Source of the DNA: Effrenium voratum
Lineage: Eukaryota; Sar; Dinophyceae; Suessiales; Symbiodiniaceae
NCBI GenBank assembly: GCA_963377175.1
Contig: CAUJNA010000580.1
Span: 87,001 to 151,000 of the forward strand
Reading direction: 5' to 3'
Length of the DNA stretch: 64,000 bases
The notes under the pieces are model-generated. The model worked only from the letters and a program-made list of their open reading frames with translations, was not told the DNA's origin and ran no database searches. The position numbers were made by a program, and so were the translations under genes. Numbering within the stretch: the first letter of the stretch is position 1; each line of letters begins with the position of its first letter. This document shows positions 93 to 54,934 of this stretch, piece by piece.

Positions 93-206
93 GGGTCCCG
101 CTGGGTGCCCTCTCTCACCCACTTTGGTTGGGGGGAAAATTATACTACACTAGACAAAACAGAAAGCAGAAACAGTACCCTGACCTCTCTCTATTGGAGG
201 ACCTAG
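93..206 (+). mobile_element. family-1 introner-like TIR module
   Basis: The module starts GGGTCCCGC and ends TTGGAGGACCTAG, the divergent form of the inverted ends AGGTCCCCCAG / CTGGAGGACCT seen in more than a dozen copies in this window. Its 5' end supplies GT and its 3' end AG. Like the other copies it carries a short A-rich tract (ACAGAAAG) and a pyrimidine-rich stretch just before the 3' end. Confidence 0.7.
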
Positions 207-214
207 AAACTGGG

Positions 215-491
215 TGGTGGTGGCAAGCGCAGACATCAAGTTCCTGAGGTCTTTAGATCTCTTTTTGAGTGGTTGGGTTTCCATTTGGCTGTGGCTCAAA
301 AAACCGGTACCCAAAATGGAACCCTGGTATGCGGGAACATGGACCAAAACCTGCGTAACCCCTCCCGTTTAATTTTGAGCCACAGCCATTTATGCTTTTA
401 GCTTAGAGTGTTTAGTGGGGGTGTCCGAGATTAGCCCACTAAAAACTATCAAAACTATCAACTTGGAGTGGGGGATCTGAGTACAGCCCAG
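215..491 (+). mobile_element. family-2 introner-like module, interrupted by a TIR element
   Basis: The right half matches the family-2 consensus: TTTAGTG..., a CCCACTAAAA block and the terminal GGGGGATCTGA...CAGCCCAG. The left half (TTTAGATC..., GGTTGGGTTTCC) lies before 283. A separate TIR element (287-387) has split it. The 5' end is too diverged to place exactly. Confidence 0.5.
287..387. mobile_element. 101-bp TIR element with perfect 15-bp inverted ends and 4-bp TSD
   Basis: GGCTGTGGCTCAAAA at 287-301 is the exact reverse complement of TTTTGAGCCACAGCC at 373-387. ATTT at 283-286 is repeated at 388-391 and fits a target-site duplication. Related, more diverged copies lie near 3566-3650 and 35317-35431. 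The element has no coding capacity and is MITE-like. Confidence 0.8.
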
Positions 492-639
492 TTTGGGAAA
501 GCTCATGGATTTTTGTGGCCTGGGAAGTTACCTGATTTGCTAAAACTGACTCAACTTGCACATGTAGGTTGTTGTTTTATCTGCGGATTGGCACAAAAAG
601 ACTTGGGCCGTCTTGTTCGCCCTTTGCCTGAATAGTATA

Positions 640-860
640 TATTTTCCTGTGCGATGCATTCGACCGGAGGAAAAAGAGGGCGGGAAAAGGGGAAGCCTTT
701 GATCTCTGTCAGAAAATGTCCCAAAGAACAAGTTGGGTTTGAAGAAATCCCCATCAGTTTATTATGTACTGGTTGCGTCCTTCCCCTGTTCTATCCGAAC
801 ATCATTCCTCCCTTCGTTTACACGGCTGACAGGGGAAACCTTTTCGAGGATTTTTGATTG
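640..860 (+). pseudogene. relic of the LTR-element zinc-ribbon region
   Basis: A plus-strand frame open from 654 to 857 ends with LCTGCVLPLFYPNIIP. This matches the zinc-ribbon end of the large ORF in the LTR element (LCPGCALPVFYPNFIP; 11 of 16 residues identical). The matching DNA is about 71 percent identical over some 41 bp (around 763-803 versus 11428-11468). Upstream, one Cys of the N-terminal knuckle is gone (KCPKEQ). The piece is short and has no LTR, so I read it as a decayed fragment of a related element or as a host paralogue of the domain. Confidence 0.55.
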
Positions 861-1570
861 TTATCTTGGATTGCAAATGCCTTCCAGTGGGAGGAAGGGT
901 GCCCCTTTTAACGTTAACATGGGGTATGCAATCTCCAAAATGTGTGTATCCCCTTTTCTCGGGGGGCAGTGGCCCCAGACCCCTCCTATGGCAAGGATTT
1001 GCCTAGTCGAGAAGAAGCTGGCAACCATCGTGTCCGCTGTGCGGCACCTCGGCGGGTCTTTTAAAGGCCCAAGAAGGCGACACACCCAGTTGCCCAGTGG
1101 CTTCCGCCCGTTTTTTCCTTCTTTTCTTTTTGGGAAGGGTTCCCCTTTTTGGGGAAGGGTTCCCCTTTTTTCCCATTCTTTTTTTGGGAGAAAGGGTTCC
1201 CTTTTTGTTCATTCTTTTTTTGGGGGGACGGGTGCCCCTTTAAAGTCAACCAACAAGAAAAGGGTGCGCCCGTGCTGTTCTCCTTTTTTTATGGGGGGAA
1301 GGGTTCCGGTTCCTTTAAAGTCAACCAACAAAGAAAGGACGCCCTTTTTTTCCCATGGAAATCCACTGGGCATCTGAGCCCAAGTTGACAGGGAAAAGCA
1401 TCGATACACAGCATTTCGAGGAAGTGAAGGCCCCCCCCCTTGTCACGCTCCATCATTAACAAGCATGTGCTTGTTCATTTTTCCGCAGCCTAATTCGAAG
1501 CTCGGTGTCTTTATGCATGGAAGCCAAGCAGAACGACCTCACGAGGGAGGGTCAAGACGTATGGGGATTC
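861..1570. other. spacer; two-copy direct repeat with homopolymer-rich tracts
   Basis: No gene is recognisable. From 1100 to 1370 runs of T and G (GGGAAGGGTTCCCC) recur. A block containing TTTAAAGTCAACCAACAA occurs twice, about 80 bp apart (near 1240 and 1315). Confidence 0.5.
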
Positions 1571-1574
1571 ATAC

Positions 1575-1712
1575 TGTGGCATGGTTGCAAAATCCATTTC
1601 GCACCGCTCATAAACCCTGGTTTATGAATGATTCGCCAACCTTTTTATACCAACAAACGTTAGGGTTTCAACCATGGTTTGGTGTGAACGGATGTCGCAA
1701 CCATCAGTATGT
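1575..1712 (+). repeat. family-D dispersed repeat
   Basis: The segment starts CTGTGGCATGGTTGCAAAATCC, with TTTCGCACC next, and ends with a related inverted motif (GGATGTCGCAACCATCAGTA). Similar sequence with TTTCGCACC, TACCAACAAAC and TCAACCAYGGTTT blocks occurs at 19366-19500, 31735-31865 and, in part, 50781-50850. It is non-coding. Confidence 0.55.
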
Positions 1713-1840
1713 TATTGCCAACTCACGAACGAAGAAGAAAAAACGGTGATCCTTGCATCAAAGCGGCCATACTTGGACAGAAACAAAGGAAGAACCCAAA
1801 CTGACCTTGGTAGCTAAAAGGATCTTCTAAAGCCATCATG

Positions 1841-1961
1841 CCCACTATTGTGCTTAATATTAGGGGACTAGGTTGACTTTTCCACTATCGTGCTTACATT
1901 AGGAGAGGTTGATTTTACCCCGCTATTGTGCTTATATTAGGGGAATTGGTTGATTTTACCA
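1841..1961 (+). repeat. three-copy tandem repeat, unit about 40-45 bp
   Basis: The core CYACTATYGTGCTTAYATTAGG followed by a GGTTGATTTTACC-type block occurs three times in a row with substitutions. Nothing else is recognisable between 1713 and 1985. Confidence 0.6.
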
Positions 1962-2014
1962 TTGACCTGTGTCCAAGTTTGGCCCCTGTAGCGATCATGC
2001 TTGAACTCGATTTC

Positions 2015-2266
2015 TTAACCCGCCGAAGCTGTTCTCGGTGCTAGCTCCAGCCGAGGAACTATGACATTCGATTGCAACAAAAACATTGACCCGCCGCCTG
2101 TTGCCCTTCTCCTGTGGGAGCTGGAGCAGCTTGTACAGAGAGGAGTGCATGTACAGGAAGTTTGATGAGTCAAGTGTAGGCAGGTGCTTCCCGCAAGCCT
2201 ATCCAGCTCGCTGAACAAGTTCTGATTGGAAGGGTCCAGGTGCAGCTGTCTTAGCATCCTAATCAA
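2015..2266 (-). pseudogene. minus-strand gene fragment with one frame break
   Basis: The minus strand reads QLHLDPSNQNLFSELDRLAG and then, after a one-base frame change near 2175, continues as LPTLDSSNFLYMHSSLYKLL with more open sequence behind it. Codon content and amino-acid composition look protein-like on both sides of the break. The family is not recognised. It could be a pseudogene, or two exon pieces separated by an unrecognised short intron. Confidence 0.4.
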
Positions 2267-2269
2267 TGA

Positions 2270-3212
2270 TTTAGCAGAGAGCTGATGTAAAGGATGCGCA
2301 CAGCTCTCGACTTGTTGTTAAGCCTCGCACATTTTCCTATGAGGCTTTGAGCTGTGGGCACTGCGGACGCTGCTGAAAGTAATTCTCTCCTCACTAGGCA
2401 CGGGTCAGTTTCACTGAGCGCATTGGGAATCAGCCTGCGTGCCGTGACAGAAACGCGCGAGCCAGAGTTCGGCTAGGGTCTCCAAGCATTCTGTATTTTA
2501 ATTTGACTATATACGAAACATAAAATCTGACAACGTGATTTTTGGTGTACCCGGGGGCCCCTTGTTGGGAAGTAGCCTTGGGGTATGCAGGCGTGCGATC
2601 AAAGGTGAATGAGAAGTTGACAGCACGTGGTCCGCGGCATCGTTGGGTACGGAACTTTTTTCTGGATGGGTTTTCAGATTTGTTGTTGGCCAATTCACTC
2701 AGGCAGTGAGTGGTTGGTTTTAGACGATTACCAAAAGGAGAAGCAGAAGCCGAAGCCATTTCAGGGGTTGTACACCTTTTCAGCCATTGTCAAGCTTGAC
2801 TTTCTTCATGGCGTAAGATAGGATTTTATAATGTGGAACTGGTTCTTTGGGGGGTTTGTAACCCTTGGTGATCTTGGGCCGGCGACATGCAAGAAATACG
2901 TAGCGGCAGTGCAGAGGCTTTGCGAAGACGACGGTCCAGGTTCTGGGTCAACGCTTGGTATCTCTCTCTCTCTCTCTCTTTCTCTCTTGCTGTCTCTCTC
3001 TCTCTCTCTGTCTCTCTTGGTTTTTGTGTTTTGCTCAGCTTTGGAAGTTACAAAGGTTACAAGCTACACAGGTTTGCAAGTGTGCCAAACAACATTCCAA
3101 GTTACAAACGTACAGTTTATCAAGCTGTGTGTTTTCGTGCGCGTGTTTGTTGTTTTCTTCCAATTGTTCAAGAAATCCCACTGGTCCTAGGCTCACGTGT
3201 TCAATCCTTGCC
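2270..3212. other. spacer with a CT microsatellite
   Basis: No supportable gene. A (CT)n tract with T interruptions lies at about 2960-3020. Confidence 0.5.
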
Positions 3213-3334
3213 TAGGTTCCCCATCTAGGTGCCCTTTCTCACCGTTTCTTTTTTGGTTGGGAGGGCTCCCCTACTAGAATAAACTACAGAAAAAAATGGT
3301 ACCCTTTTTCTACCCTCTCTACTGGAGGACCTAG
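3213..3334 (+). mobile_element. family-1 introner-like TIR module
   Basis: It begins TAGGTTCCCC and ends CTACTGGAGGACCTAG, with the conserved internal block TGGTTGGGAGGG...CCCCTACTAGAATAAACTACAG. The GT and AG termini lie within the inverted ends. Confidence 0.75.
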
Positions 3335-3565
3335 TTTCTGGGCTCGCGTTGTTTGTTTTCTTTTTGGTTTTTCCCCTGTTGTTTTCCACTTTTTGTTTGT
3401 TGTTTTTTGTTTGGTTGTTTTATTGTGTTTCTTTTCTTTTTTTTTTCCCGTAGGCGTCGGCCAGTGACTGCGCTGGTCTTCTGGCAGACCCCACTCTGCG
3501 GGGGGAGTTCGCGCAGCTGGGACGAAGTTAGGGCTGAGATGGGTTCCACTACAACCCACCCCCAG

Positions 3566-3790
3566 GGTAAATTGGGATGAATGGCACCTTGGTAAATGGA
3601 ACCAGAGAGTAAAACCTCTTTAATTTTGAGCCGCACCATATGTACGGGGGTTGATCAATATTCCATTTAAGACCCCAAAATGACCATGGGTAGCTTTTTC
3701 CATTGGTGCAAGTCATCTTTTCTGGTGGTTTCGCTGATATGGTCATCCCATGTAAATGATCTTTTGATCAACCCTCATATTATATATATA
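3566..3790. repeat. TIR-element relic plus dispersed repeat
   Basis: 3566-3650 shares AAATGGAACC...TAAAACCT...TTTAATTTTGAGCC with the elements at 287-387 and 35317-35431. 3650-3780 shares the order CCCATG..., GTGCAAGTYATCYTTTCTGG, GGTCRTCYCATGT and CTTTTGATCAACCC with 52069-52222. An AT run lies at 3779-3790. Confidence 0.5.
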
Positions 3791-4693
3791 TGCACCCTTT
3801 ATGGTGGCTATGGAGTGGCTGTATATCCCATTGAATTTAATTTCCGGGGGTAGCTTTGGTTTGGGGGGAAGTGGACACCATCCGAGAAGGGGCAGCTTTT
3901 GGTTGCAGCTTGCTCGCAGGTCCCTAAGTGTCATCACGAACGAGTTGATGAGCATTTGAGTCACAATCAAAACCTGGGTAAGTGAAGGTTGGTAAGGGAC
4001 AATCCCAGCCATAAATAGCGGCCTCCGCCTTCTTAGTTCTTTACATGGTTCTGGGTCGACCATTTTTGTACCGGGTATTGATTGCGACTCATTTACTCAC
4101 TCAGACCAATGGGTCTTAGCAATGGAGGTGTTCAATCACCCAGGTAGTGTCAACTTCGGAATCCAGACACTCTTAGTTATCCAAGGCGAATTGACCCTTT
4201 TTGTTATTTGTTCGTTTTCTCTTTGTTGGTCCATATTTATTCAAGGTTCCAAAAGGTGAACCTTTTATTTCCAAGTCCTTTGGGCTGAGGTCAGATTCCA
4301 CGGGACACTTGCCAGAACCCCCTTCGAATTTGGGTCATTTCCGAAAGGGGAGCCATGAGCCACCCCTAAGCCCAGTTGTTATTATCCAAAGGTATCCAGT
4401 GCTTATGTAAGGTTTGGAGCTGTTTTCAGATACATCTTGGCAAACGTAATTGTAAACTGCTTCGCGTTGCCCGCCTCCATGACCCAATGGCGAGTTTCCC
4501 TTTGAAACCGCAAAAGAAAAGCACCCTCAACAAAAGAGCCAGGCCCCCAGGCCCCATGAATGTGTGACTTTCTCTTTCTTCAGTGTTCTTGGCAAGTTTC
4601 TTGTTTTTTTTGGTTCTATTCATTTTTTTGGTTTGGGGCCCGCAAAACACAGAAGCTATGTTTTTTTTTTTTTGCCAAGCCGTACCGTTGGCT
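3791..4693. other. spacer, no gene seen
   Basis: About 900 bp without a supportable ORF or a repeat recognised elsewhere in the window. Confidence 0.5.
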
Positions 4694-4807
4694 AGGTCCC
4701 CCAGAAGTGCCCTTTTACCCCTTTTTTGGGGGAGGGTTTTCCTTTTTGAATAGACCACAGAAAAACATAGGGTTCCCTTATTCTATCCTCTCTGCTGGAG
4801 GACCTAG
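4694..4807 (+). mobile_element. family-1 introner-like TIR module
   Basis: It starts AGGTCCCCCAG and ends CTGCTGGAGGACCTAG. The block AATAGACCACAGAAAAA and a branch-like TTATTCTATCC precede the 3' end. Confidence 0.75.
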
Positions 4808-5044
4808 TTGTTTTTGTTTGGTTCCATTCATTTTTTGGTTTGGTGCCTCCAACACATTTTTGCCAAGCCACACCGTTGATTTTTTTGAAGACTCCCCCCA
4901 GGTATGACTTTTCTTCCCTCGGATGACTCAGGAAGAAGCTCCAGGGCGCCAGCACCCAGAATGGGATTGATTTCTTCGCTCGCAGGGCTTGTAAAGGGCT
5001 CGATCCTATCTTGGGAGGAGCAATATAAGATATGATATAACAGC

Positions 5045-5151
5045 CAGGTCCCCCAGTAGCGCCCTTCTACCAACTTTTTTGGCTGGGAGGATTCCCCTAC
5101 TACAGAAAAAATATGGTACCCTTATTCTAACCTTTCTACTGGAGGACCTAG
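5045..5151 (+). mobile_element. family-1 introner-like TIR module
   Basis: It runs AGGTCCCCCAGTAG ... TTATTCTAACC ... CTACTGGAGGACCTAG, close to consensus. It ends 48 bp before the 5' LTR. Confidence 0.8.
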
Positions 5152-5194
5152 AAAGGGATTGTTTGCAGGAGAATCCAGTTCTGGTACCAGTTAT

Positions 5195-5199
5195 AAAGG
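5195..5199. repeat. 5' target-site duplication of the LTR element (AAAGG)
   Basis: AAAGG directly precedes the 5' LTR and is repeated directly after the 3' LTR at 14414-14418. A 5-bp duplication is usual for LTR-element integration. Confidence 0.93.
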
Positions 5200-5234
5200 T
5201 GTGATTAGCCATGGTTTATTTCATCACCAGGGAT

Positions 5235-5248
5235 GTCGCGGTAGTGAC
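5235..5248 (+). other. LTR copy of the GDTA-loop hairpin
   Basis: GTCGC-GGTA-GTGAC pairs five base pairs, including one G.U, around a GGTA loop, the loop class found throughout the interior. The same sequence is at 14066-14079 in the 3' LTR. Confidence 0.75.
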
Positions 5249-5260
5249 TGACCTGTGGTG

Positions 5261-5271
5261 TTTGGCTCAAG
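5261..5271 (+). promoter_or_regulatory. spliced-leader-like 11-mer in the LTR
   Basis: TTTGGCTCAAG equals the last 11 nt of the published dinoflagellate spliced leader (quoted from memory as ending in CCATTTTGGCTCAAG). The bases before it (CTGTGGTG) diverge. It lies 13 nt after the LTR hairpin and recurs at 14092-14102. It may be a captured leader or chance. Confidence 0.5.
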
Positions 5272-5583
5272 ATTTTGGGTTCCGTCGCGCCTCGAATGGG
5301 CGTCGCCGAACCCCTGCGTCGACCGACGGCATCTCGGGGGAGAAAGAGACCTCGGGCCGCCGCCAGGTTGGTAGGGACCAGTCGTGCGGCCTGTTGTCGA
5401 CCAAGGTTGCGGGTTAACCCTTTTCTTGTTTGGTTTGTTTCCCTTTTGGTTGTTGTTCTCTGGTGTGTGGGAAACCCTGATCTTTGGGACCGGGGATTGG
5501 TTTGCTTTTGGGGAACCTTTCTTTTGTGGCTTGTTTACCCCAACTTACCCATTGCCTGGGCACAGGCTCGTGCCCGAATCACA

Positions 5584-5610
5584 GGTTATCAGCCGTAGGA
5601 CTTTCCTACG
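5584..5610 (+). other. post-LTR region: possible primer-binding site and strong hairpin
   Basis: The interior starts GGTTATCAGCC. This resembles an initiator-Met primer site (TGGTATCAGAGCC) with one inserted T and a two-base gap, which is not convincing. CGTAGGA-CTT-TCCTACG (5594-5610) is a perfect 7-bp stem 10 nt inside the LTR edge. Its three-base loop sets it apart from the GDTA series. Confidence 0.45.
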
Positions 5611-5637
5611 CGCTTGAGACCATCAACTACAAGCTCA

Positions 5638-6264
5638 ATGACGTCGACCCCACGTTCGCACAGGAGCGTCGTGGATGAGGAGGCCATCCTAGGTGGCCTC
5701 CGCTCAAGTGAGGACCTACCGGACTATGACTACGAGGAATTCGAGACAGGTTCAGCAGGTCAGGACCGCAGGGGTGATGATCCCGGTAGGGACACACCCA
5801 GAAGCCGTGGCAGGTACACTGACGATGGAGACGACCGCATTTTCCGTCAGGCCACCGATGATGAACAAGGACGAGGAGCTCGCTCCGGTAGGAGCGGCTC
5901 CGAATCAGGTTTCGGACAAGGTCATTTGGACTTCATCAGCATGGCGATGAACATGGCTCGTCCTCATACGGACGATCAGGAGGCTCTGCCTAATCGACCC
6001 CCTACGGATCAGGTTGAGGACAGACCGTTAGGTCCGGGAACCATGGTTGTGGCTCCGAGAGATATCTCGGGTCGATCAACAGGTTCTCAAAATCCAGGTC
6101 AGTTTGATGAGCAAGAGGAGAGGGCGTTTGCGGGCATCGGATACGATGCCCTGCTGGCGTCGACCGCAGGTTGGGGCAGTAGCGTGAAGCAAGAGTCTGA
6201 TACTAATAGGCCCAACCCGGCTTCGACGACCAATTTTGAGTTCAATGATGATGAAGATTCGTGA
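5638..6264 (+). CDS. ORF A, acidic disordered protein (208 aa)
   Basis: This is the first ORF of the element. ATG at 5638 is the first in-frame ATG; the frame is open from 5614. The product is hydrophilic and looks disordered: an acidic tract near residues 30-45 (DYDYEEFETG), repeated RG/GR and DD pairs, and an acidic C-terminus (FNDDEDS). No domain is recognised. The end overlaps the start of ORF B by 20 nt in another frame, so reinitiation or frameshifting could couple the two. Four GDTA hairpins (5781, 5881, 6023, 6132) lie within it, including the perfect 8-bp one at 6132. A gag-like N-terminal part is possible but not shown. Confidence 0.65.
   Translation: MTSTPRSHRSVVDEEAILGGLRSSEDLPDYDYEEFETGSAGQDRRGDDPGRDTPRSRGRYTDDGDDRIFRQATDDEQGRGARSGRSGSESGFGQGHLDFISMAMNMARPHTDDQEALPNRPPTDQVEDRPLGPGTMVVAPRDISGRSTGSQNPGQFDEQEERAFAGIGYDALLASTAGWGSSVKQESDTNRPNPASTTNFEFNDDEDS
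5881..5896 (+). other. hairpin CGCTCC-GGTA-GGAGCG
   Basis: Perfect 6-bp stem, GGTA loop, inside ORF A. Confidence 0.9.
6132..6151 (+). other. hairpin with perfect 8-bp stem and GATA loop
   Basis: GGGCATCG pairs perfectly with CGATGCCC around GATA. Here the loop is read in a codon phase different from most other members (Gly-Tyr instead of Asp-Arg). Confidence 0.92.
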
Positions 6265-7606
6265 CGAGGAAGAAAGTATGTCGTATCGGAATGCAAGGAG
6301 CCGTGCTGCTGCGAAGGCTAGGAGTCTCTCTCGTGGAGCTGCTAGGGACCTTCGTGTGGACACGGATACTTGGAGTGCAAGAGAGCGGATCAGGGACAGT
6401 CGGGGCACCCTTAGAGGTTTGGAGGCCATCCATGACGGAAGAGGACTGGTAGGTCCTCCCGTCATTGATCCCGTCCCAAATGTTCCCCCTTTTCCCAACA
6501 TCCAGTTTGGAGGACCGCTGCATCAGAGAGTCGGGGATATGAATCGGGGTACTGGTTCATCCAGGATTACTCAGCGAGCCGCCGATGTGGTTGAGGCAGG
6601 CGCGAGGGACGGAAGACTTGCTAGTGCGCTTGGAATCGAGGATCGTCCGCCGATCGCTAGCCCGTTAGGGCGAGATCTCAGCGACCTCGAGCCACTAAGG
6701 TCTAGCAATGAGTTCACTCCCCAATGGGGATCAGCAAGCAGGGAACGAAGTGCCTCTGCGAAGAGGCCGTCATCCGTAGCCGGAGGGACCGATAGGTCGA
6801 AGGCGAGGAGGGCTAGCCCTGGACCGATAGGTTCAACGCCGCAGGATGAAGACATGTTTGATCCTGCTGATGTTCATACTCATTCCACTCCTGAATCTCA
6901 TGGGTCGAATGTCAATCCCAGATCCGGCGATAGCCGGGGAAGGGGTATCAGTCCAATCAGGCCGCCCAGGATCGCTGATGCTCCTGTTTCCGACCCCAGG
7001 GGACGTAACAGAGTTGAAAGGGTTCCTGAGAGGATCGAGATATCGACTCCTCCAGCTCTGAGATCCCATTCTTCTGCTGAATCTGGAGATGCTAGGGTCA
7101 AGGAAGTATTTGACCTGCATATCCAGGAGCTGTTTGAACGAGGCGAGGCATCCGGTTCCGTTGCAAACACTCTCAATGCTTTTGCTAATCAGATCAGGTT
7201 ACTGAACGGTCAGGTGAGTTCCATGCAAAAGGAATGGCAAAATGAGAATCGGCTCATGAAGGACAAGGTCGGCCGTCTAGCTACCGAGGTTGTGACCCAA
7301 GCGGATGCTGATCGTATGCGAATGATTGTTCAACGGTTTGCCGGTGAGGTCATTCCCGATAGCGGGGCCATTGTCAGGCAGGCTATCGATGAGCAAAGCG
7401 AGGTTGTGGATCAGAGGATCAACTCGTTATCCGACGAGGTTCGGGAATCCGTTATCAAGAGACTTGGTGTCGTATTCAGTTGTTTCTCTTCTAAGTCATT
7501 CAATTCGATTTGGAGCACTTGCAAGATGCGAGGAGGGGATACCCTCTCTCAGCATGACCGGTCACTTGCCGTTAGGAAGTGGTTGAATAACTTGATTGCC
7601 GCGTAG
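6245..7606 (+). CDS. ORF B, basic/disordered protein with C-terminal coiled coil (453 aa)
   Basis: It starts at a run of three ATGs (6245) overlapping the end of ORF A. The first 275 residues are Arg/Ser/Pro-rich and low in complexity (SYRNARSRAAAKARSLSRG near the start; many RD, SP and RG dipeptides). Residues about 285-420 are predicted by eye to be alpha-helical with heptad-like spacing (VKEVFDLHIQELFERGE, LLNGQVSSMQKEW, DEQSEVVDQRINSLSDEVRE), so an oligomerising coiled coil is likely. The C-terminus is Trp/Lys-containing (RKWLNNLIAA). No enzyme motif is seen. Eight GDTA hairpins lie inside, in different codon phases. A structural or gag-like role fits but is inference. Confidence 0.7.
   Translation: MMMKIRDEEESMSYRNARSRAAAKARSLSRGAARDLRVDTDTWSARERIRDSRGTLRGLEAIHDGRGLVGPPVIDPVPNVPPFPNIQFGGPLHQRVGDMNRGTGSSRITQRAADVVEAGARDGRLASALGIEDRPPIASPLGRDLSDLEPLRSSNEFTPQWGSASRERSASAKRPSSVAGGTDRSKARRASPGPIGSTPQDEDMFDPADVHTHSTPESHGSNVNPRSGDSRGRGISPIRPPRIADAPVSDPRGRNRVERVPERIEISTPPALRSHSSAESGDARVKEVFDLHIQELFERGEASGSVANTLNAFANQIRLLNGQVSSMQKEWQNENRLMKDKVGRLATEVVTQADADRMRMIVQRFAGEVIPDSGAIVRQAIDEQSEVVDQRINSLSDEVRESVIKRLGVVFSCFSSKSFNSIWSTCKMRGGDTLSQHDRSLAVRKWLNNLIAA
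6441..6458 (+). other. hairpin GAGGACT-GGTA-GGTCCTC
   Basis: Six Watson-Crick pairs with a U.G pair closing the GGTA loop. The wobble would be an A-C mismatch on the opposite strand. Confidence 0.85.
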
Positions 7607-7829
7607 CATTTCGCTTGATCAAGCTGGCTCACACGCAGGTAACCGCACCACACCCACAGGCATTTCAGGACACAGACAGGTCAGAATGCGAGGATGAAGC
7701 AGATATGCTTGTCACCAAGGTTTATCTTCTGCTTGTTGAAGGACTGATTTGATTGATTTCTCAGTTGTTTGTCACAGTTTTGAGGGAGAAGGTCTCTGGC
7801 CGGTAGGCTGAGCCTTCTGGGTCGACTAG
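7607..7829 (+). other. non-coding gap between ORF B and ORF C
   Basis: All three frames are interrupted. It holds hairpins AAGCA-GATA-TGCTT (7697-7710) and GCC-GGTA-GGC (7799-7808). A CAG/GTAACC donor-like site (near 7636) and several CAG/G acceptor-like sites follow one another, so a short intron joining ORF B to ORF C is conceivable. The GGCCGGTAGGCTG block recurs at 7838 and near 13469. Confidence 0.5.
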
Positions 7830-8840
7830 GGAATTCCGGCCGGTAGGCTGGGTTCCTGGATCGCTCGCGCCCGCGCGCTGCTGTCTTGGGTTCCGTGGCC
7901 GGTGGAAGAAGCAGAGGTTCCCGCCGGAAAGGGAGGAGATGTTCCCGATAGGGAGGCTCAGGTTCCCCAGGTCGCTGCGGCAGCAAGTCGACCTACCATA
8001 GAATCGGTGAAGCGAGCAGCATCTCCCGTTAGGGAGGAACGCAGGGCCAAGGACCCGGTCGACACTCAGAAGAAGGATGAGGTGCCAGTTTCCCATGCTC
8101 CCAAGTACACGGACGATGATGGGGATCTGCGGGATACCGCGGCGACCCCGAGGGGAGCATCGACTCAGGAGTCTCGAGGAGGCGTGCACAATTATGTGAA
8201 CACGCCCTACCCGGAGCACCCGGGGGAGGCACCGGAGCTGAAGCCTGCGGAGGTTAGGCATTTCAAGGAGTCGGGCTCCTACCATGCATCGAGAGGTTCG
8301 CGGACTTCTGCTAGGCCAGCGGAGCACAGATCCAATAGGAGGTACATCGTTCACCATGTCCTGGCGAGGGAGGCAGGCGAGCCCTTCATGTATGCAGTGA
8401 TAAGGAACAAAGCGATCAATCGCGAATATGCGCGGGTTACCGCCGAAGAATGGAGGAGGGCAAATGAGACTGCGCACCTCGCATTTCCCACCCGCGATAG
8501 CGAGTGGGATGCTGTGTTGAACAGAGCCGTGCACAATGACTATATGTACGGGGCCATTGATGCTAACCGGGCAGCCGGGAGGATTGATTTGGAGTACGTC
8601 GACCCTCGTGATCGGAGGACAGCGCCGTGGGCTGACCAGCAGTGGAACATGAAGAAGCTGGCGACCGAGGCTGCCAATATCCCGTTAGGGATGAGGCAGG
8701 ATATCCAGGCGAAGTATCAGCATGGGAGGGCACCCGTGGGAGACTGGGCAGATATGCCTGATCGGGACGATTACATGGTTCGTGGTACCGCTAGTGACCG
8801 AACCGGAAGGCCTACGATTGTCTCCGGGCGCCTGGAGTGA
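7830..8840 (+). CDS. ORF C, unknown protein without N-terminal ATG
   Basis: The frame opens after a TAG at 7827 and runs to TGA at 8838-8840. The first ATG is only at 8388, so the first 186 codons must be reached by splicing, frameshift or a non-ATG start (a GTG is at 7902). The N-terminal third is charged and disordered; from about residue 175 it looks folded (RRYIVHHVLAREAGEPFMYA, then EWRRANETAHLAF, and DLEYVDPRDRR). No family is recognised. It overlaps ORF D, whose frame is open from 8798; a -1 shift between 8798 and 8840 would fuse them. Hairpins at 7839, 7943, 8023, 8127, 8486, 8679 and 8747 lie in this ORF. Confidence 0.6.
   Translation, partial: GIPAGRLGSWIARARALLSWVPWPVEEAEVPAGKGGDVPDREAQVPQVAAAASRPTIESVKRAASPVREERRAKDPVDTQKKDEVPVSHAPKYTDDDGDLRDTAATPRGASTQESRGGVHNYVNTPYPEHPGEAPELKPAEVRHFKESGSYHASRGSRTSARPAEHRSNRRYIVHHVLAREAGEPFMYAVIRNKAINREYARVTAEEWRRANETAHLAFPTRDSEWDAVLNRAVHNDYMYGAIDANRAAGRIDLEYVDPRDRRTAPWADQQWNMKKLATEAANIPLGMRQDIQAKYQHGRAPVGDWADMPDRDDYMVRGTASDRTGRPTIVSGRLE
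8486..8509 (+). other. hairpin with 6+3 bp stem, 1x1 mismatch and GATA loop
   Basis: TCCCAC pairs with GTGGGA, a C/A mismatch follows, then CGC-GATA-GCG. Confidence 0.85.
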
Positions 8841-9391
8841 GGGCTACCTTGCTGAACGCGCAGACGGGCCAGTGCATCCCGCTGGATGACCCGACTTGGG
8901 TGCCGGAGGTGGCCTCATCGCATTTGCTGGCGGCGACGATCACTACGATCGCGTCGCATGTGGACTGCGCCCTTGGGCGCGCGTGGCGGATGCCCATGTT
9001 CCACCCTCAGCTGATGGCAGCGACGGCGATGCTGGAGAAGCTGCAGAAGTACTTCAACGCGCTGAATGAGGCTGTGTTGGGCAAGAGGCTAGGCACAGCG
9101 CCTTTCAGCATGATTGCCGGCCACCTTGCTCCGGAGTTGCGGACTATTCCGACGAGGGAGCAGATGTCTGACACATTGGCGCAATCGGCAGAGGAAATCA
9201 TGCTTTCCCATGTTTCGGCATTGTCTCACTCGGGTTCTGTTGCCGATAGGCAGCAAATCCTTGGAAGAGATGGCGACCCATTCGGGAAGTCGTGGTTTGA
9301 GGATGAGCCTGGTAGCCACCTGGCCTGGACATCACATGGCTGGTGGTGTTGCTGTTCCCCTGAAGCCGAAGACGAAGATCGTGTGGGGTAA
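8798..9391 (+). CDS. ORF D, small helical protein or continuation of ORF C
   Basis: The frame is open from 8798. A GTG at 8837 overlaps the ORF C stop as GTGA; the first ATG is 8990. The product has hydrophobic, helix-like stretches (SSHLLAATITTIASHVDCALG, then QLMAATAMLEKLQKYFNALNE) unlike the disordered neighbours. It resembles a folded, possibly capsid-like helical domain only in general character; no motif supports that. The C-terminal codons after about 9336 are probably not read, because the ORF E frame takes over there. One hairpin lies at 9238-9255. Confidence 0.55.
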   Translation, partial: PNRKAYDCLRAPGVRATLLNAQTGQCIPLDDPTWVPEVASSHLLAATITTIASHVDCALGRAWRMPMFHPQLMAATAMLEKLQKYFNALNEAVLGKRLGTAPFSMIAGHLAPELRTIPTREQMSDTLAQSAEEIMLSHVSALSHSGSVADRQQILGRDGDPFGKSWFEDEPGSHLAWTSHGWWCCCSPEAEDEDRVG

Positions 9392-9998
9392 GCGACCACA
9401 TGTCGATGATGAGGACGAGCAGGACCAGGAGGCAAGTTCGTCAGGACGGCAGGTAGCTGGACCGGCCCCCGATAGGGGCGCCGGGACGGGAACGGCTGAT
9501 GATGAAACGCTCCCTGATATTGGGAAGTTGTCCATGGCGGAAGGAAAGAAGGACGACATGGACGTGGACCAGGACGCTGCCAAGGGAGGTTACTCCGGGT
9601 TGTTCAGGTCTGCAATGAACGAGCCCAAGCCTCGGGATACTGAGGCTGGGCAGGTGAGTCCGGACAAGACGAAGTTCGAGGAGTACCGAAAAACTGCACC
9701 CAGGTATGAGTACAGTGGGGAGGGAGATGATAAGAGGCTCCTTCCCACGAACACTCCCATCGACATGGAGAAGCCCTTGCCGGCCGAGACGGCGATCTTG
9801 ATTCCCCGGGCCGTGGCTACGCAAGCGGAGGCTGAGGAGGCAGAGAGGAGTGCCATGGAGGCTATCCGCGGAGATGCGAGGCTTCCCGACGTTGGTCAGG
9901 AGGACCGGGCGGCGGCTGATCCTCAACATGGCGGCATCGGTAGATGCGCTGACCAGGACATTGAGCAGCTTGCCCGGGTGGTCGGGAAATTTGCTTGA
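9336..9998 (+). CDS. ORF E, acidic linker-like protein (220 aa)
   Basis: ATG at 9336 lies inside the end of ORF D (+1 frame), giving a 56-nt overlap. The product starts MAGGVAVPLKPKTKIVWGKR, then an acidic DDEDEQDQE stretch and a low-complexity middle. The frame extends upstream, but that part looks like shadow sequence. It overlaps ORF F by 71 nt if F starts at its ATG at 9928. No domain is recognised. Hairpins 9467, 9628 and 9934 lie within it; the one at 9628 is an 8-bp stem with a GATA loop. Confidence 0.6.
   Translation: MAGGVAVPLKPKTKIVWGKRPHVDDEDEQDQEASSSGRQVAGPAPDRGAGTGTADDETLPDIGKLSMAEGKKDDMDVDQDAAKGGYSGLFRSAMNEPKPRDTEAGQVSPDKTKFEEYRKTAPRYEYSGEGDDKRLLPTNTPIDMEKPLPAETAILIPRAVATQAEAEEAERSAMEAIRGDARLPDVGQEDRAAADPQHGGIGRCADQDIEQLARVVGKFA
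9628..9647 (+). other. hairpin AGCCTCGG-GATA-CTGAGGCT
   Basis: Eight consecutive pairs including one G.U. Two further C-G pairs can form beyond a 1x1 mismatch. Confidence 0.9.
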
Positions 9999-12900
9999 CG
10001 CGAAGTCTGCTGAGCTGGTCGCGGCGAGATGGGGTGGTAAGGCGAGTTACGACAAGCCGGAGGCCCCACTGACCGAAGCCGGAATGAAGAGTGCTTCGCT
10101 GGAGGACCGAGCATATGCTCTCACGCAGCTGAACCGCGTGGTGAACTTCCATAAGAAGTACTTGTGCTTTGGACGAGGGGCGCCATCGGTGGGCCCGTCG
10201 GCTCCAATCAACCCATTCGCGCCCGGCCAGGTTGACGAAAGCAGGGGATTCCGCACGAGTGAGAATCCTAGAAAGATGACGTACAATCTCGTGGTCTCGG
10301 ACGGGAAGAGGGACTACCTTGCCGATAGGCTAGAGATAAGTCAGGAGATGCGAGCATCCGGGCTAGTGCCTCCTGAGGCTAGGACGTGCCAAATAGTGGT
10401 TCCCACGAAGAGCAGGATGGGCGAGTACGTCCCTGGCTATGAGCAGGGAATCGCGGCCACGATTGCAGGGCGTGAGACTGCTCAGGCAATGATGAAGCTA
10501 CTCACGAGCGACTTTGATGGATTGGTCATCAATTCGAAGAAGATCTCGGAGTTATTCGAGGAACGGGTATTGAAGGAAACCGGGCGTCAGCCTGGAAATT
10601 GGGTGAACATAGATCAGGTCGTGTCGTTCCTGAAGGAGATTGTGGGGATGGAGAACGCTGAGATGAATTGGGCATTCTTCAACCCGGCAATCAAGGCTCT
10701 CCCGGACGGGCAGGTTGAGGTCATGTTAATGGCCATGTATGACGGATCCGGTGTCCTCCTCAAGGACTTCACCAGGTTGGTGTCCGTTAGGTTCACACGG
10801 ATCGGACGGGACATGAGCTTTCAGGCTGTGCGGCGCATGTACACCGAGGTGGATGCTCCTGGTGGCTCTCTTATGTGTGAGATGCCATGGAATGAGCTTC
10901 CTATGGTGGGGTACGTCGTCATGAAGTTTCAACACTTCCGGAAGGCGGTCCAGCTCCAAAGGATGAGGCGGAATGGAAAGGCCATGATCGAGATATTGAT
11001 CACGAGGCCTGATGAGTACGAATCAATTGATGGGAGGCCGGATGAGGGCTTGGTGCCGATTACGGCGACTTTGCGCCCTGATGCTGAGGTATCGCCTTCG
11101 TGGTACGTCAGGGACAGGCTACGGAACTACTCAGGTAGGTACGTGGTGGTCATGGTGGATCTTCGGGTGCACTGGTCGTTGGTTGGGCCCGTGTTTCTGA
11201 CCAGGAGAAAGACTCTTGCCGTTCGGGACGAGATCCAGATGGGTACGTGGAAGGCTGCGTACATGTTCGATGATTACACGATAGTGTATCATCGCGTTTG
11301 GGAATACGGTGACTTCACTCCCGATAGGGGAAATCACAGGCGGACGCGTGAGGGCGTCAGGCTGAGCGTGACTAGCACCTTCTGTTTGAGGTGCGCGGAG
11401 CTCACGCCATCTGGGATGCACTTGTGCCCCGGTTGTGCGCTCCCGGTCTTTTATCCGAACTTCATCCCCAACGCGGACGTGGAGGACTTCGTTAGGAGCC
11501 AAATCGTCCCGGACTGGGTGAGGAGCACGGGACAGTTTAGTCCCCGGAGGATCGCTTCCGATGTGGTCGGGGTCATCAAGAGGAACCTGATTTCCTATTC
11601 GATGGCATCCGACCTGAGGCTGACGGTGCAGAGTGGGATCAGGCTGCCTCCTTATCTCGGTGAAGACAAGGATGGCGTTGACGCGGCGTGGGATGAATTG
11701 GCAAAGGTGCTTTTCCAGTCCTCCTACGTGTCGGGCATCTCGGCCTCGGACGCATTCGTGGAGAAGTGGGTGGTGAAGCATCTGATCAAGACCGACCAAA
11801 TCGATAGATTTGAGTCGGTGACGGATTACTTCCGAGCGAGTCCGGCGCATGCGGCCCAGTGGGGGAGACGTATGACGACTTCCGTTAGGAAGTTCGCACG
11901 TCACGACACGTATTTGTCCTTTTACATCCCGATGGCCTATGTGATCGGTGCTGCTGCGGGTCATTTGACTCCGATGTACCCGACCCATAGGGATGATGTG
12001 GAAATCCTGGCCAGCCATCGGTTGATGTCGGACCTCAGGAACTACCTGGTCTCGTCTACGGGGTATGATGAGAAGAAAAGGTTGAGGGAGGCGGTAGCCA
12101 AAGTGCAGAAGGCAATCAGTGCTGGACAGTCGGAGCCTCCTGCTCCTTTCCGGGACCCATTCGTCTACGTTAGTGACGATCGGGTGAGGACCGTTCTTGG
12201 TGCTCAGCAACCGGAGCCGGTTGATGTGAACATCGAAGAGCTTCAGTCGGTACATCATGTTGCTCCGGGTCCTGGTCCAAAGCAGGAGCCGGTCACCAAG
12301 GGTGGAAAAGGAAAAGGGAAGAAGGGCGAGAAGGGTGGTAAGGGCGATAGTCCTTCCGACCCACAACCGAAGTCAGGCGAGGCATCGGGCAAAGGGTCTG
12401 GCAAGGGCGATAGTCCTGCCGCTCCGAAGGCAAAGGCTAAGGCTGACGCTGGGCCGACTCTGATGGAGGTTGATCCGCCGGAAGGTCAAGCGAAGAAGTC
12501 GTGGATCGCGGTAGCGGTCGAAGGAGCTCGACCAAGTGCAAAGGCAAAGGCAACTTCAGCCCCGAGGTCTGAGCCGAAGGGAAAGGGAACTCTGGCTTCT
12601 GAGTCGAAAGGCTCCCAAGCTCCGAGGACCGAGCCCAAGGAGAGGACGCCTGGAGACCCCAAGGTTGAGGTCAAGCAGGAGAAGGGGAGCGGAGATGATG
12701 CTCCCGGCGATAGCCGGGGCTCAGCCGATAAGCAAAGGAGAGAGAGAAAGTCTCGTTGGGATCATGAGGTGCCTGCTAAGGAATCAACGAAGCGGGAGGC
12801 ATCGAAGAGACCCGATGATGTCGACAGCAGGCCAGGTGCAGCGGCGAGAGAGGCAAGTGGAGACGACCTTCACTCCGCGCTTGGTACGTCTTCGGCAAAG

Positions 12901-13449
12901 GACGCGGTAGCGCCCCTGACGGCTTCCAAGGCAATGGCGAAGAAGCCAGAGGGGAGCGAAGTCAGGCTGCACTCGGCGGGGCGAGCTGCCGCAAGCCCGG
13001 TGGAAGGTCATTTCAAGACGCTACCGGATGCTTCTATGGTGGATGCGTTCCTGGGGATGTCATCCGATAGGGCGCTCAACAGACAGGTGAGAGACTTCAT
13101 CAGGAACGGCGAAACAAGTTCGGCTTTGGAAGCTCTCAACCAGATCGTGGCGAACTCCCACGCGGGGCGGATACGTCGGGGTACCGATGTTTCCCGAACG
13201 CCGTCTAGGAGGTCCGATAGGACACAGGACGCTAGGGATTCCCGAGAGTCGAGAAGGCGAAGATATCGACCACGGAGGGACGAGGATCGAGATCGTCGGA
13301 GAGACGATCGTCGGGATCATCGGGATGATGATTCGCTGGAACGCGACAGAGATCGACGGAGAGATGATCGCAGGAGATCCGAGAGGGATCGCGACAGGGA
13401 CCGTGCGCGGGGCGGACGTGACCGGAGGAGGCGTGATGATAGCCGGTAG
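9928..13449 (+). CDS. ORF F, large zinc-ribbon protein with charged RD-rich tail (1173 aa)
   Basis: This is the longest ORF of the window. The frame is open from 9850; ATG 9928 is chosen because residues before it look like shadow coding of ORF E. Residues 1-480 look folded but match no family I know. C486-X2-C489-X10-C500-X2-C503 is a zinc ribbon followed by ALPVFYPNFIPN. Residues about 510-760 again look globular (YSMASDLRLTVQSGIRLPPY, then WVVKHLIKTDQ). About 785-1010 is Lys/Gly/Ser/Pro-rich and basic; the last 85 residues are almost only R, D, E and S, like nuclear RNA-binding RD/RE domains. MVDLRVHW (about 412-419) and YMFDDYTIVY (about 446-455) superficially recall polymerase motifs A and C but are too close together. 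A nucleic-acid-binding structural or maturation protein is a reasonable inference. Twenty hairpins lie within it. Confidence 0.8.
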   Translation: MAASVDALTRTLSSLPGWSGNLLDAKSAELVAARWGGKASYDKPEAPLTEAGMKSASLEDRAYALTQLNRVVNFHKKYLCFGRGAPSVGPSAPINPFAPGQVDESRGFRTSENPRKMTYNLVVSDGKRDYLADRLEISQEMRASGLVPPEARTCQIVVPTKSRMGEYVPGYEQGIAATIAGRETAQAMMKLLTSDFDGLVINSKKISELFEERVLKETGRQPGNWVNIDQVVSFLKEIVGMENAEMNWAFFNPAIKALPDGQVEVMLMAMYDGSGVLLKDFTRLVSVRFTRIGRDMSFQAVRRMYTEVDAPGGSLMCEMPWNELPMVGYVVMKFQHFRKAVQLQRMRRNGKAMIEILITRPDEYESIDGRPDEGLVPITATLRPDAEVSPSWYVRDRLRNYSGRYVVVMVDLRVHWSLVGPVFLTRRKTLAVRDEIQMGTWKAAYMFDDYTIVYHRVWEYGDFTPDRGNHRRTREGVRLSVTSTFCLRCAELTPSGMHLCPGCALPVFYPNFIPNADVEDFVRSQIVPDWVRSTGQFSPRRIASDVVGVIKRNLISYSMASDLRLTVQSGIRLPPYLGEDKDGVDAAWDELAKVLFQSSYVSGISASDAFVEKWVVKHLIKTDQIDRFESVTDYFRASPAHAAQWGRRMTTSVRKFARHDTYLSFYIPMAYVIGAAAGHLTPMYPTHRDDVEILASHRLMSDLRNYLVSSTGYDEKKRLREAVAKVQKAISAGQSEPPAPFRDPFVYVSDDRVRTVLGAQQPEPVDVNIEELQSVHHVAPGPGPKQEPVTKGGKGKGKKGEKGGKGDSPSDPQPKSGEASGKGSGKGDSPAAPKAKAKADAGPTLMEVDPPEGQAKKSWIAVAVEGARPSAKAKATSAPRSEPKGKGTLASESKGSQAPRTEPKERTPGDPKVEVKQEKGSGDDAPGDSRGSADKQRRERKSRWDHEVPAKESTKREASKRPDDVDSRPGAAAREASGDDLHSALGTSSAKDAVAPLTASKAMAKKPEGSEVRLHSAGRAAASPVEGHFKTLPDASMVDAFLGMSSDRALNRQVRDFIRNGETSSALEALNQIVANSHAGRIRRGTDVSRTPSRRSDRTQDARDSRESRRRRYRPRRDEDRDRRRDDRRDHRDDDSLERDRDRRRDDRRRSERDRDRDRARGGRDRRRRDDSR
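10985..11002 (+). other. hairpin TGATCGA-GATA-TTGATCA
   Basis: Seven pairs with one G.U next to the closing pair; GATA loop; inside ORF F. Confidence 0.88.
11383..11436 (+). other. zinc-ribbon coding segment
   Basis: The codons give C-L-R-C, ten residues, then C-P-G-C. The CPGC end and following LPVFYPN are conserved in the relic at 640-860, which suggests purifying selection on this domain across copies. Confidence 0.8.
11791..11819 (+). other. longest hairpin: 12 bp, one bulged A, GATA loop
   Basis: CAAATC-GATA-GATTTG is extended by ACCGAC pairing with GTCGGT, separated by a single bulged A at 11813. All within ORF F coding sequence. Confidence 0.93.
11877..11894 (+). other. hairpin GACTTCC-GTTA-GGAAGTT
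   Basis: Six Watson-Crick pairs plus an outer G.U; GTTA loop; inside ORF F. Confidence 0.88.
12337..12420 (+). other. two paralogous hairpins with re-paired stems
   Basis: 12337-12357 and 12400-12420 share the core AAGGGCGATAGTCCT. In the first, AAGGGC pairs with GTCCTT. In the second, the 3' arm changes to GTCC-TGCC and is matched by a 5' GGCA with one A bulged, so the arm still pairs. This looks like compensatory change. Confidence 0.75.
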
Positions 13450-14020
13450 GCTGATTCACGAGGGTTGCGGCCGGTAGGCTTGCACCCGCCCTCCAATGGT
13501 CAACGCTGCGGGGTGATGATCACGTTCATCCTACACCGCTGAGGCGTGTTGTCCATGCCTCTCCTGTACCGCTGATCTGCTGCTGGTGATGGTCACCAAG
13601 AAGTAGTGTGAGTGAGCGGGGAAGCGAACCAGTGGAGGGTACTCCCAGGTTTGCAAAATTAGTATTCGATTTCAAGTATGCATGGTCAGGTGTACCTCTC
13701 GCCGATAGGCAAGGGTACAGATTGGACAAATGATATCCTTTTTCATGGCTTCTGATAAGAATTAAACTTCTTGCATTTCTGATGCAAACAGTTGTGACCT
13801 ATTGTCGTCATGTGGACTTTTCCACAAGGTATGTTGGACAGCGTTACCCCGACTAATTCGGGGTGGTGGCGGGAATTTAATGCCCGGGATGTCGCGCGAC
13901 TGCCTTTGTGGGTTTGCTCCACCGCTGACGGCGGTAGTGTCCAGCTGTTTGCGGACGTATGCGAGCAGTTAAGTCCTATCAGTAAATGGCACGCTCCACC
14001 CGTCATTTGACGGGCTCCTC
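13450..14020 (+). other. 3' non-coding region of the element
   Basis: After the ORF F stop come GDTA hairpins 13462-13487 and 13691-13719 (about 11 bp with one bulge and one mismatch), then hairpins with other loops: TTGCAT-TTCTG-ATGCAA (13771-13787), TGTGGA-CTTT-TCCACA (13811-13826), CCCCGA-CTAAT-TCGGGG (13847-13863) and CCCGTC-ATTT-GACGGG (13999-14014). It looks like a structured 3' untranslated region. Confidence 0.7.
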
Positions 14021-14030
14021 GTGAGGGGGG
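14021..14030 (+). promoter_or_regulatory. polypurine tract
   Basis: GTGAGGGGGG lies immediately before the TG of the 3' LTR, the usual place for plus-strand DNA priming. Confidence 0.85.
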
Positions 14031-14413
14031 TGTGATTAGCCATGGTTTATTTCATCACCAGGGATGTCGCGGTAGTGACTGACCTGTGGTGTTTGGCTCA
14101 AGATTTTGGGTTCCGTCGCGCCTCGAATGGGCGTCGCCGAACCCCTGCGTCGACCGACGGCATCTCGGGGGAGAAAGAGACCTCGGGCCGCCGCCAGGTT
14201 GGTAGGGACCAGTCGTGCGGCCTGTTGTCGACCAAGGTTGCGGGTTAACCCTTTTCTTGTTTGGTTTGTTTTCCTTTGGTTGTTGTTCTCTGGTGTGTGG
14301 GAAACCCTGATCTTTGGGACCGGGGATTGGTTTGCTTTTGGGGAACCTTTCTTTTGTGGCTTGTTTACCCCAACTAACCCATTGCCTGGGCACAGGCTCG
14401 TGCCCGAATCACA
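14031..14413 (+). repeat. 3' LTR (383 bp)
   Basis: TGTGATT...AATCACA, about 99 percent identical to the 5' LTR. The same internal hairpin (14066-14079) and spliced-leader-like 11-mer (14092-14102) are present. Confidence 0.95.
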
Positions 14414-14418
14414 AAAGG
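14414..14418. repeat. 3' target-site duplication (AAAGG)
   Basis: It matches 5195-5199. The joined flanks would read ...GTTATAAAGGTTCTC..., the inferred empty site. Confidence 0.93.
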
Positions 14419-54920: not shown

Positions 54921-54934
54921 TGCCGTGCGAGTGT

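Follow-up and report, generated by a model that had tools for sequence, protein, structure and literature searches.

Dispersed GDUA-loop hairpins, probably RNA recognition signals, along giant Copia-like retrotransposons of the dinoflagellate Effrenium voratum

The closest described systems are the dispersed stem-loops that act as packaging signals in bacteriophage MS2 and satellite tobacco necrosis virus (STNV). The portions of the reports used here give the shared feature as an (x)xYA loop motif accompanied by a bulged A for MS2, and as an A.X.X.A loop for STNV (PMC6281560, PMC3662417). Such assembly mechanisms have also been suggested, in a passage of one of these reports, for Gag-like proteins (PMC6281560). 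Here we describe a long terminal repeat (LTR) retrotransposon of Effrenium voratum that carries, along its interior, short predicted hairpins with a common G-[A/G/T]-T-A loop (GDTA in DNA, GDUA in RNA). The copy from which we started lies in a stretch of 64,000 nucleotides (nt) of contig CAUJNA010000580.1 (assembly GCA_963377175.1, positions 87,001 to 151,000, forward strand), called the window here; positions are those of the window. Like the signals of MS2 and STNV, these are many dispersed stem-loops that differ in sequence and have a short motif in common. Unlike them, they sit in an LTR retrotransposon of 23–24 kb at about 100 sites, and three of the four loop bases are nearly fixed. The rule that we used contains no bulged A, a sister family carries another loop, and binding by a Gag protein is a proposal here.

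Two further systems are related. The genomic RNA of Ty1, Ty3 and the retroviruses is recognized by Gag, and this is the likeness that we propose. A mini-Ty1 that retains 380 nt at the 5′ end and 357 nt at the 3′ end still transposes when the proteins are supplied in trans, according to the sections of two reports that we drew on (PMC4974528, PMC11381356). In enteroviruses, GUUA and GCUA loops are reported to adopt a UNCG-like fold that is read by the 3C protein (PMC5633025, PMC3173479, both used in part); for the GAUA tetraloop, the part of the latter paper at hand gives an expectation of stability and no structure (PMC3173479). These GNYA/YNMG loops occupy one or two sites per enteroviral genome, and GCUA is the variant avoided here. 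A search of the open-access literature, which leaves most subscription journals outside, found no such code in an LTR element.

Hairpins were scored by two rules. The perfect rule asks for a GDTA tetraloop closed by at least four uninterrupted Watson–Crick pairs; the relaxed rule asks for a Watson–Crick closing pair and at least four Watson–Crick pairs out of five. In the interior of the element (scanned from 5584 to 14028), we found 31 perfect GDTA hairpins, compared with a mean of 0.26 and a maximum of 2 in dinucleotide shuffles (n=300). Under the relaxed rule there are 45, with a mean of 0.82 and a maximum of 4 in the shuffles (n=300). The sequence-only reading that drew attention to this element had counted 23 hairpins with four or more pairs between 5781 and 13719; the enrichment holds, but the count was too low, as there are 30 in that span. 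Its overall figure of about 45 agrees with the relaxed rule, which places 43 of the 45 interior hairpins in the span. Counted over every loop sequence, there are 68 perfect tetraloop hairpins, of which 31 are GDTA; the shuffles give 35.6 ± 6.1 in total, so that the excess is the GDTA class. The fourth GNTA loop, GCTA, is present at 26 sites, none of which has at least four leading pairs and one of which passes the relaxed rule. At GATA, GTTA and GGTA sites the pairing is two-peaked, mostly with 0–1 or at least 3 leading pairs. Other tetraloops and other loop lengths were rejected by scans as an equal class within the element: loops of 3, 5, 7 and 8 nt gave no comparable class there, and a loop length of 6 recovered the GDTA hairpins with their inner pair scored as loop. 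The window flanks hold almost none (relaxed rule), with one GDTA hairpin in 1–5199, and one together with three in reverse complement in 14414–64000.

The same pattern is found in other genomic copies. We searched 1.16 Gb in 3699 contigs with the LTR; the 40 scored of 1007 candidates are 99–100% alike, and 30 loci (L001–L030) were fetched, half with 5′ interior and half with 3′ interior (15 each). Leaving out one locus, L007, they fall into subfamily A, which includes the window copy and is 96–99% identical to it, and subfamily B (77–81%). The interiors carry 229 GDTA hairpins in 45 kb (5.09 per kb) and none in reverse orientation. The outer flanks carry five in 45 kb (0.11 per kb) and five more in reverse orientation, and the 30 LTRs carry 30. 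L007 is counted within the 45 kb of interior, but its match to A or B ends after the first 202 nt. The reading of L007 as a divergent interior (49%) was rejected: the 202 nt of element are followed by hairpin-free sequence unlike A or B. Three full-length elements (C343, C3123 and C3173) measure 23–24 kb between LTR copies and have 101, 108 and 105 hairpins, LTRs included, at 2–9 per full kb inside and along the whole length; an 11-kb copy has 53. The full-length pieces of A and B each contain three GDTA hairpins in reverse orientation.

The stem-loops are under selection at the RNA level, separate from the protein code. We aligned A (L031–33) to B (L034–36) over 22,052 of 24,001 A positions, at 83% identity, and used hairpins with other loops in the same elements as chance hairpins (345 in A, 281 alignable). 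Six of the 101 A hairpins were dropped and 95 aligned without gaps; 86 of these keep the loop class and 77 stay hairpins in B, compared with 92 of 281 chance hairpins (P=1e-16). From B to A, 102 of 108 aligned without gaps (six left out), and 77 are hairpins in A. The substitution rates at loop bases 1 to 4 are 0.03, 0.24, 0.02 and 0.08, with approximately 0.2 in the surroundings; at the first two stem bases they are 0.03–0.04 on the 5′ side and 0.04–0.10 on the 3′ side. Base 2 therefore changes at the background rate, and bases 1, 3 and 4 and the adjoining pairs change least. With the rest of the loop kept, base 2 was swapped among A, G and T 18 times; no swap to C occurred, where 4.8 were expected (P=0.002). 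Two loops did acquire C at base 2, together with other loop changes (GCAG and GCTC).

The stems show the corresponding pattern. Where both sides of a stem position had changed, 10 of 11 were Watson–Crick pairs again; the figure for chance hairpins was 15 of 30 (P=0.03). Changed stem cells were still paired (Watson–Crick or G.U) in 27 of 50 cases, compared with 110 of 342 (P=0.004). In the A-to-B direction, changes on one side only produced 17 G.U, 6 A.C and 16 other combinations; the chance hairpins produced 94, 112 and 106 (G.U vs A.C, P=0.014). Single mismatches standing in the stems are distributed as 17 G.U, 5 A.C and 7 other in A and 21, 1 and 13 in B, with 42, 30 and 148 (A) and 39, 32 and 136 (B) in the chance hairpins. 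Pooled over A and B, which share ancestry so that their counts are not independent, this gives 38 G.U to 6 A.C, against 81 to 62 by chance. The preference for G.U over A.C points to the sense RNA.

We shuffled synonymous codons in four open reading frames (ORFs) of B, 200 times each; the four include a pair that shares 308 nt. The ORFs contain 78 hairpins (18, 22, 9 and 29), compared with approximately 4 after shuffling, and other loops were at or slightly under expectation. When folded by RNAfold with 50-nt flanks, 85 of 101 A hairpins and 88 of 107 B hairpins kept three inner pairs (one of the 108 lies too close to the end of its piece). Among 150 chance hairpins sampled from each, 21 (A) and 27 (B) kept them. 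The elements thus carry stem-loops with a shared loop along the genome, with motif and pairing conserved between two subfamilies, as is the case for dispersed packaging signals. The sequence-only reading had described dispersed hairpins that differ in the stem and share the loop, and had named enrichment over dinucleotide shuffles, pairing kept in other copies, the density of other tetraloops and the density in flanks as its checks. The results agree with it on all of these, and its interpretation of the pattern as a recognition code is probably right.

A related family carries a different loop. Four 10-kb pieces sampled irrespective of content (L043 and L044 are partly N) contained seven GDTA hairpins on both strands. 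One of the pieces, L045, contains a related element with dUTPase and reverse transcriptase (RT), 62% identical to the B pol over 631 residues. This sister dUTPase-Copia element is covered by L068, L045 and L069 (G000:C3440:94001–118000, minus strand). Its hairpin class emerged from a scan across loop classes, in which the top single class had 36 hairpins where 4.0 were expected (P=3e-22). The family has 66 hairpins with the six-base loop C-[A/G/T]-A-N-G-C (CDANGC) over approximately 20.5 kb and one GDTA hairpin. The GDTA/CDANGC counts are thus 101/1 in A, 108/0 in B and 1/66 in the sister family. CCANGC forms no hairpin at 31 sites, and the antisense strand has one CDANGC hairpin. Five sister ORFs contain 45 hairpins against approximately 3.4 in synonymous shuffles (per ORF 19, 3, 10, 6 and 7 vs 1.34, 0.10, 0.46, 0.97 and 0.49). 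The standing mismatches are 8 G.U, 2 A.C and 12 other. Alternatively, this loop could form an inner C-G pair and leave a C bulged. In three other Copia families, picked from 150 RVT_2 hits for open frames of 1960–1990 residues, 4.7 kb were scanned per family and no loop class was enriched; pieces of this size from A and from the sister family do show an enriched class.

The explanation that we favor, and consider somewhat probable from these comparisons, is that the GDUA-loop hairpins are dispersed, family-specific RNA recognition signals, probably for packaging by a reader that the element encodes. Around a hundred stem-loops with the constant loop would fold as hairpins in the sense RNA. An RNA-binding protein of the element, most likely Gag-like, would read the loop, and would select and package the RNA of its own element through some 100 sites acting jointly. 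The family-specific loops would keep the RNAs of co-resident families apart. Packaging as the purpose is suggested by the number and spread of the sites and by the parallel to dispersed packaging signals. Base 2 points outward in UNCG-like folds; base 2 of the GDUA loop is probably flipped out in a fold of this kind, which would explain its freedom to vary, and the avoidance of C would then be a choice of the reader. A more specific proposal, which we advance tentatively, is that the giant dUTPase-Copia elements carry orthogonal RNA addresses, GDUA and CDANGC, that each may be read by its own CCCH zinc-finger Gag, and that loop and reader may co-evolve.

The proteins of A/B and of the sister family have diverged to different degrees. 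Identity is 60–63% in the integrase core region, RT and RNase H, and 56% in the stretch before dUTPase. It falls to 39% in the N-terminal part of the integrase ORF and to 24–31% in parts of ORF3, and ORF1 can be aligned only over a Cys-rich stretch (30%). A sister ORF of 1501 residues matched none of the seven proteins from the A/B side with which it was compared. Divergent ORF1 and ORF3 next to a conserved pol are as expected if the reader had changed along with the loop. CCCH fingers bind RNA, and their position here presumably corresponds to the nucleocapsid end of Gag; for both reasons they are the first candidate reader. The 1312-residue sister ORF has two CCCH fingers upstream of the integrase region, above the Pfam cut-offs (PF22628, E=1e-6; PF00642, E=5e-6). 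In B, two CCCH matches, likewise upstream of the integrase region, lie in a separate frame of 362 residues, into which the end of the ORF1 frame extends. A CCCH motif scan also matched a Cys cluster, a single time in A and a single time in B. It had no match in the three other families, for which the 4.7 kb read may not include the gag region. ORF3 is the second candidate. It follows the pol region, in the position of env (window 7830–13449; open over 1929 residues in the B copy, L034 minus strand), has no Pfam match above the cut-off, and has protein relatives P0001–P0003.

Several observations weigh against these proposals. The spacing of the hairpins is irregular (coefficient of variation 0.83–0.87; 19–1144 nt). 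Of the 50 changed stem cells, 23 are broken. One-sided changes from B to A show little bias (16 G.U, 12 A.C and 11 other; chance hairpins 80, 79 and 107), and the covariation evidence spans two subfamilies. The sister code was read from one copy. With flanks of 20 nt, RNAfold predicts its six-base loop form for 42 of 66 hairpins, and with flanks of 50 nt for 30 of 65, which is weaker than in A/B. As for the readers, all CCCH matches in B are below the Pfam cut-offs (best E=2e-5 and 4e-4), A has a single clear finger, and many related Copia proteins carry CCCH fingers as well (Pfam annotation). AlphaFold models of two ORF3 pieces had a mean predicted local distance difference test score of 31 and 35, with no usable fold. 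The junction of the main deletion in the window copy (see below) was present in none of 10 element-aligned places (12 sampled), so there is no sign of a pol-less copy mobilized via its hairpins. Finally, in the parts of the reports used here, the packaging sequences of Ty1, Ty3 and HIV-1 occupy the 5′ portion of the RNA (PMC4974528, PMC11381356), unlike the full-length spread described here; thus, a full-length code is not required for packaging in general.

The sequence evidence would also serve for an element-encoded reader that acts in RNA export, localization or translation control, and LTR elements need to export unspliced RNA, as stated in the part of a report that we used (PMC10309623). 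In terms of plausibility, however, about 100 sites over 23 kb, rather than a few near one end, suit coating or assembly better than a switch, and we consider such a role rather unlikely. A constant loop and selection at the RNA level would also suit a host RNA-binding or RNA-modifying protein, which might read the loops for silencing, masking, editing or stability and be exploited or escaped by the element. If one host reader served several families, a common loop would be expected. Instead, two related families in one genome differ in theirs and the three other Copia families (4.7 kb each) show none. This favors a reader that has diverged together with its family and makes a host reader improbable.

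Two explanations without an RNA reader appear highly improbable. The symmetry of the stems is present in the DNA as well, and the sites could act there as extruded cruciforms or as spaced inverted repeats to which a protein binds. However, the stems are unrelated in sequence, the tolerance of G.U above A.C marks the sense RNA, and the reverse orientation is rare, as the counts for the 45 kb of interior and for full-length A and B show; DNA-level palindromes are disfavored by this wobble bias. Just as improbable is a functionless origin by a mutational process or by tiny mobile hairpins akin to double-hairpin elements. The number of hairpins does differ between the subfamilies, and some occur in one only. 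Yet the A/B differences at gap-free sites (six A and six B hairpins left out) are base substitutions and not insertions, and conservation peaks at loop bases 1, 3 and 4 and the inner stem. A by-product of repeated coding motifs can be dismissed: the majority of the hairpins are within open frames, but they occupy all three reading frames, unevenly, synonymous-codon shuffles erase approximately 95% of the signal, and hairpins also lie between and after the long ORFs (7697–7710, 13634–13761).

The full-length relatives are Copia-like. An open frame of B contains dUTPase (Pfam, E=7e-37). The Copia-type RT match (RVT_2) reaches E=2e-5 and 24.7 bits in B and 26.4 bits in the sister family, both under the Pfam cut-off of 31.6; relatives at approximately 50–57% identity carry PF07727. 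A YVDD motif and a Copia-like RNase H were judged by eye in the B pol frame. The ORF of 794 residues upstream of dUTPase-RT is integrase-like by eye, with no Pfam match at E≤1. Named relatives of the pol protein are mostly from Symbiodinium. The Copia-like proteins there (RE2, or unnamed) have dUTPase and/or RVT_2 and some have CCCH; unlike the elements described here, they are known as proteins only. In the B-type RT region, 40 scored copies of 507 candidates are 99–100% identical, which suggests recent activity. The interiors of A and B differ by approximately 20%, and their LTRs are 99–100% alike (L001–L030). This suggests LTR exchange or recent recombination, so that exchange between A and B is possible. 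Upstream of dUTPase, residues ~570–720 of L035:386-6010:- contain a PCGPWSTWQ motif that looks methyltransferase-like by eye. An open frame of 1524 residues in L042:5428-9999:+ matches C-5 cytosine DNA methylase (E=6e-8).

The window element occupies 5200–14413 (9.2 kb; Table 1) and has the hallmarks of an LTR retrotransposon, with TG...CA ends and a 5-bp target-site duplication (AAAGG). Its LTRs are direct repeats that align gap-free, with 100% identity over 249 nt and 91% over 172 nt. It is an internally deleted derivative of a 23–24 kb Copia-like element with dUTPase and RT. The first junction has removed the rest of ORF1 and the zinc-finger, integrase, dUTPase, RT and RNase H regions. A Pfam profile search of the window ORFs gave no RT match, the RT region being part of what was deleted, and no match above its cut-off in the ORF3 region. 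The LTRs and hairpins are retained without the RT, dUTPase and zinc-finger regions. Large retrotransposon derivatives (LARDs) are LTR copies that lack pol. The window copy is likewise pol-less; it differs in keeping coding remnants and in a deletion that is absent from the sampled copies. With the junction missing at all 10 element-aligned places of the 12 sampled, a trans-mobilized deletion lineage was rejected, and a LARD-type non-autonomous family, with several copies of the same pol-less structure, does not fit either. The window gave no Rfam covariance-model match at the gathering threshold and no tRNA (searched with the bacterial code), and no relative was found in the collections of viral contigs and genome contigs. 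In the fly element copia, the pairing is with an anticodon-arm piece of a tRNA instead of its 3′ end. Positions 5584–5599, after the 5′ LTR, may likewise pair with an anticodon-arm piece of a tRNA and not with a tRNA 3′ end. Elsewhere in the window, 24001–28000 and 54001–58000 have an AT skew of about −0.5 and long repetitive open frames in several frames.

Table 1. Features of the LTR element in the window. Hairpins are those of the relaxed rule, given as stem-loop spans.
Feature	Positions	Strand	Remarks
Target-site duplication AAAGG, 5′ side	5195..5199	.	read from the letters
5′ LTR (TGTGATT...AATCACA)	5200..5583	+	own GDTA hairpin at 5235-5248
Element interior	5584..14030	+	45 GDTA hairpins (relaxed rule), sense strand; 0 in reverse orientation
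ORF1, 5′ part (gag position)	5599..6264	+	
GGTA hairpin	5781..5792	+	
GGTA hairpin	5880..5897	+	retained in subfamily B
GTTA hairpin	6023..6034	+	absent in B
GATA hairpin	6054..6071	+	B: double compensatory stem change, loop GGTA
GATA hairpin	6132..6151	+	stem of 8 bp
GTTA hairpin	6660..6671	+	
GATA hairpin	6787..6798	+	
GATA hairpin	6820..6835	+	
GATA hairpin	6923..6938	+	
GATA hairpin	7035..7046	+	
GTTA hairpin	7194..7205	+	
Deletion junction 1	7454..7455	+	~11 kb gone compared with full-length A relative
GATA hairpin	7532..7547	+	
GATA hairpin	7697..7710	+	between long + strand ORFs
ORF3 region of full-length relatives	7830..13449	+	here split over several frames
GGTA hairpin	7835..7852	+	
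Deletion junction 2	7898..7905	+	~3.4 kb gone
GATA hairpin	7942..7955	+	
GTTA hairpin	8022..8037	+	
GATA hairpin	8127..8142	+	
GTTA hairpin	8432..8443	+	
GATA hairpin	8491..8504	+	
GTTA hairpin	8678..8693	+	
GATA hairpin	8745..8760	+	
GATA hairpin	9238..9255	+	
GATA hairpin	9467..9478	+	
GTTA hairpin	9585..9596	+	
GATA hairpin	9628..9647	+	one G.U pair
GGTA hairpin	9698..9711	+	C.A mismatch within stem
GGTA hairpin	9934..9947	+	
GATA hairpin	10319..10332	+	T.T mismatch within stem
GTTA hairpin	10544..10561	+	one G.U pair
GTTA hairpin	10719..10734	+	one U.G pair
GATA hairpin	10985..11002	+	one G.U pair
GATA hairpin	11275..11288	+	
GATA hairpin	11797..11812	+	
GTTA hairpin	11877..11894	+	
GATA hairpin	12340..12355	+	one G.U pair (B: G-C, loop GGTA)
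GATA hairpin	12404..12417	+	one G.U pair
GGTA hairpin	12504..12519	+	
GATA hairpin	12702..12719	+	
GGTA hairpin	12901..12914	+	A.C mismatch within stem
GGTA hairpin	13173..13190	+	
GATA hairpin	13212..13223	+	B: loop GTTA
GGTA hairpin	13440..13453	+	
GGTA hairpin	13634..13645	+	3′ of long ORFs
GATA hairpin	13699..13712	+	B: loop GTTA
GATA hairpin	13750..13761	+	beyond the span of the sequence-only reading
Polypurine-tract-like G-run	14021..14030	+	precedes 3′ LTR
3′ LTR	14031..14413	+	GDTA hairpin at 14066-14079
Target-site duplication AAAGG, 3′ side	14414..14418	.	

Viral dispersed signals share a short and variable motif, whereas the signal in these elements would be a near-explicit text that is repeated about 100 times per RNA, and the different loop of the sister family would serve as a natural control. 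If the proposed explanation is true, packaging-signal-mediated assembly would extend to LTR retrotransposons, and orthogonal RNA–protein pairs would be on offer. It would also suggest how very long retroelement RNAs are recognized among competing families.

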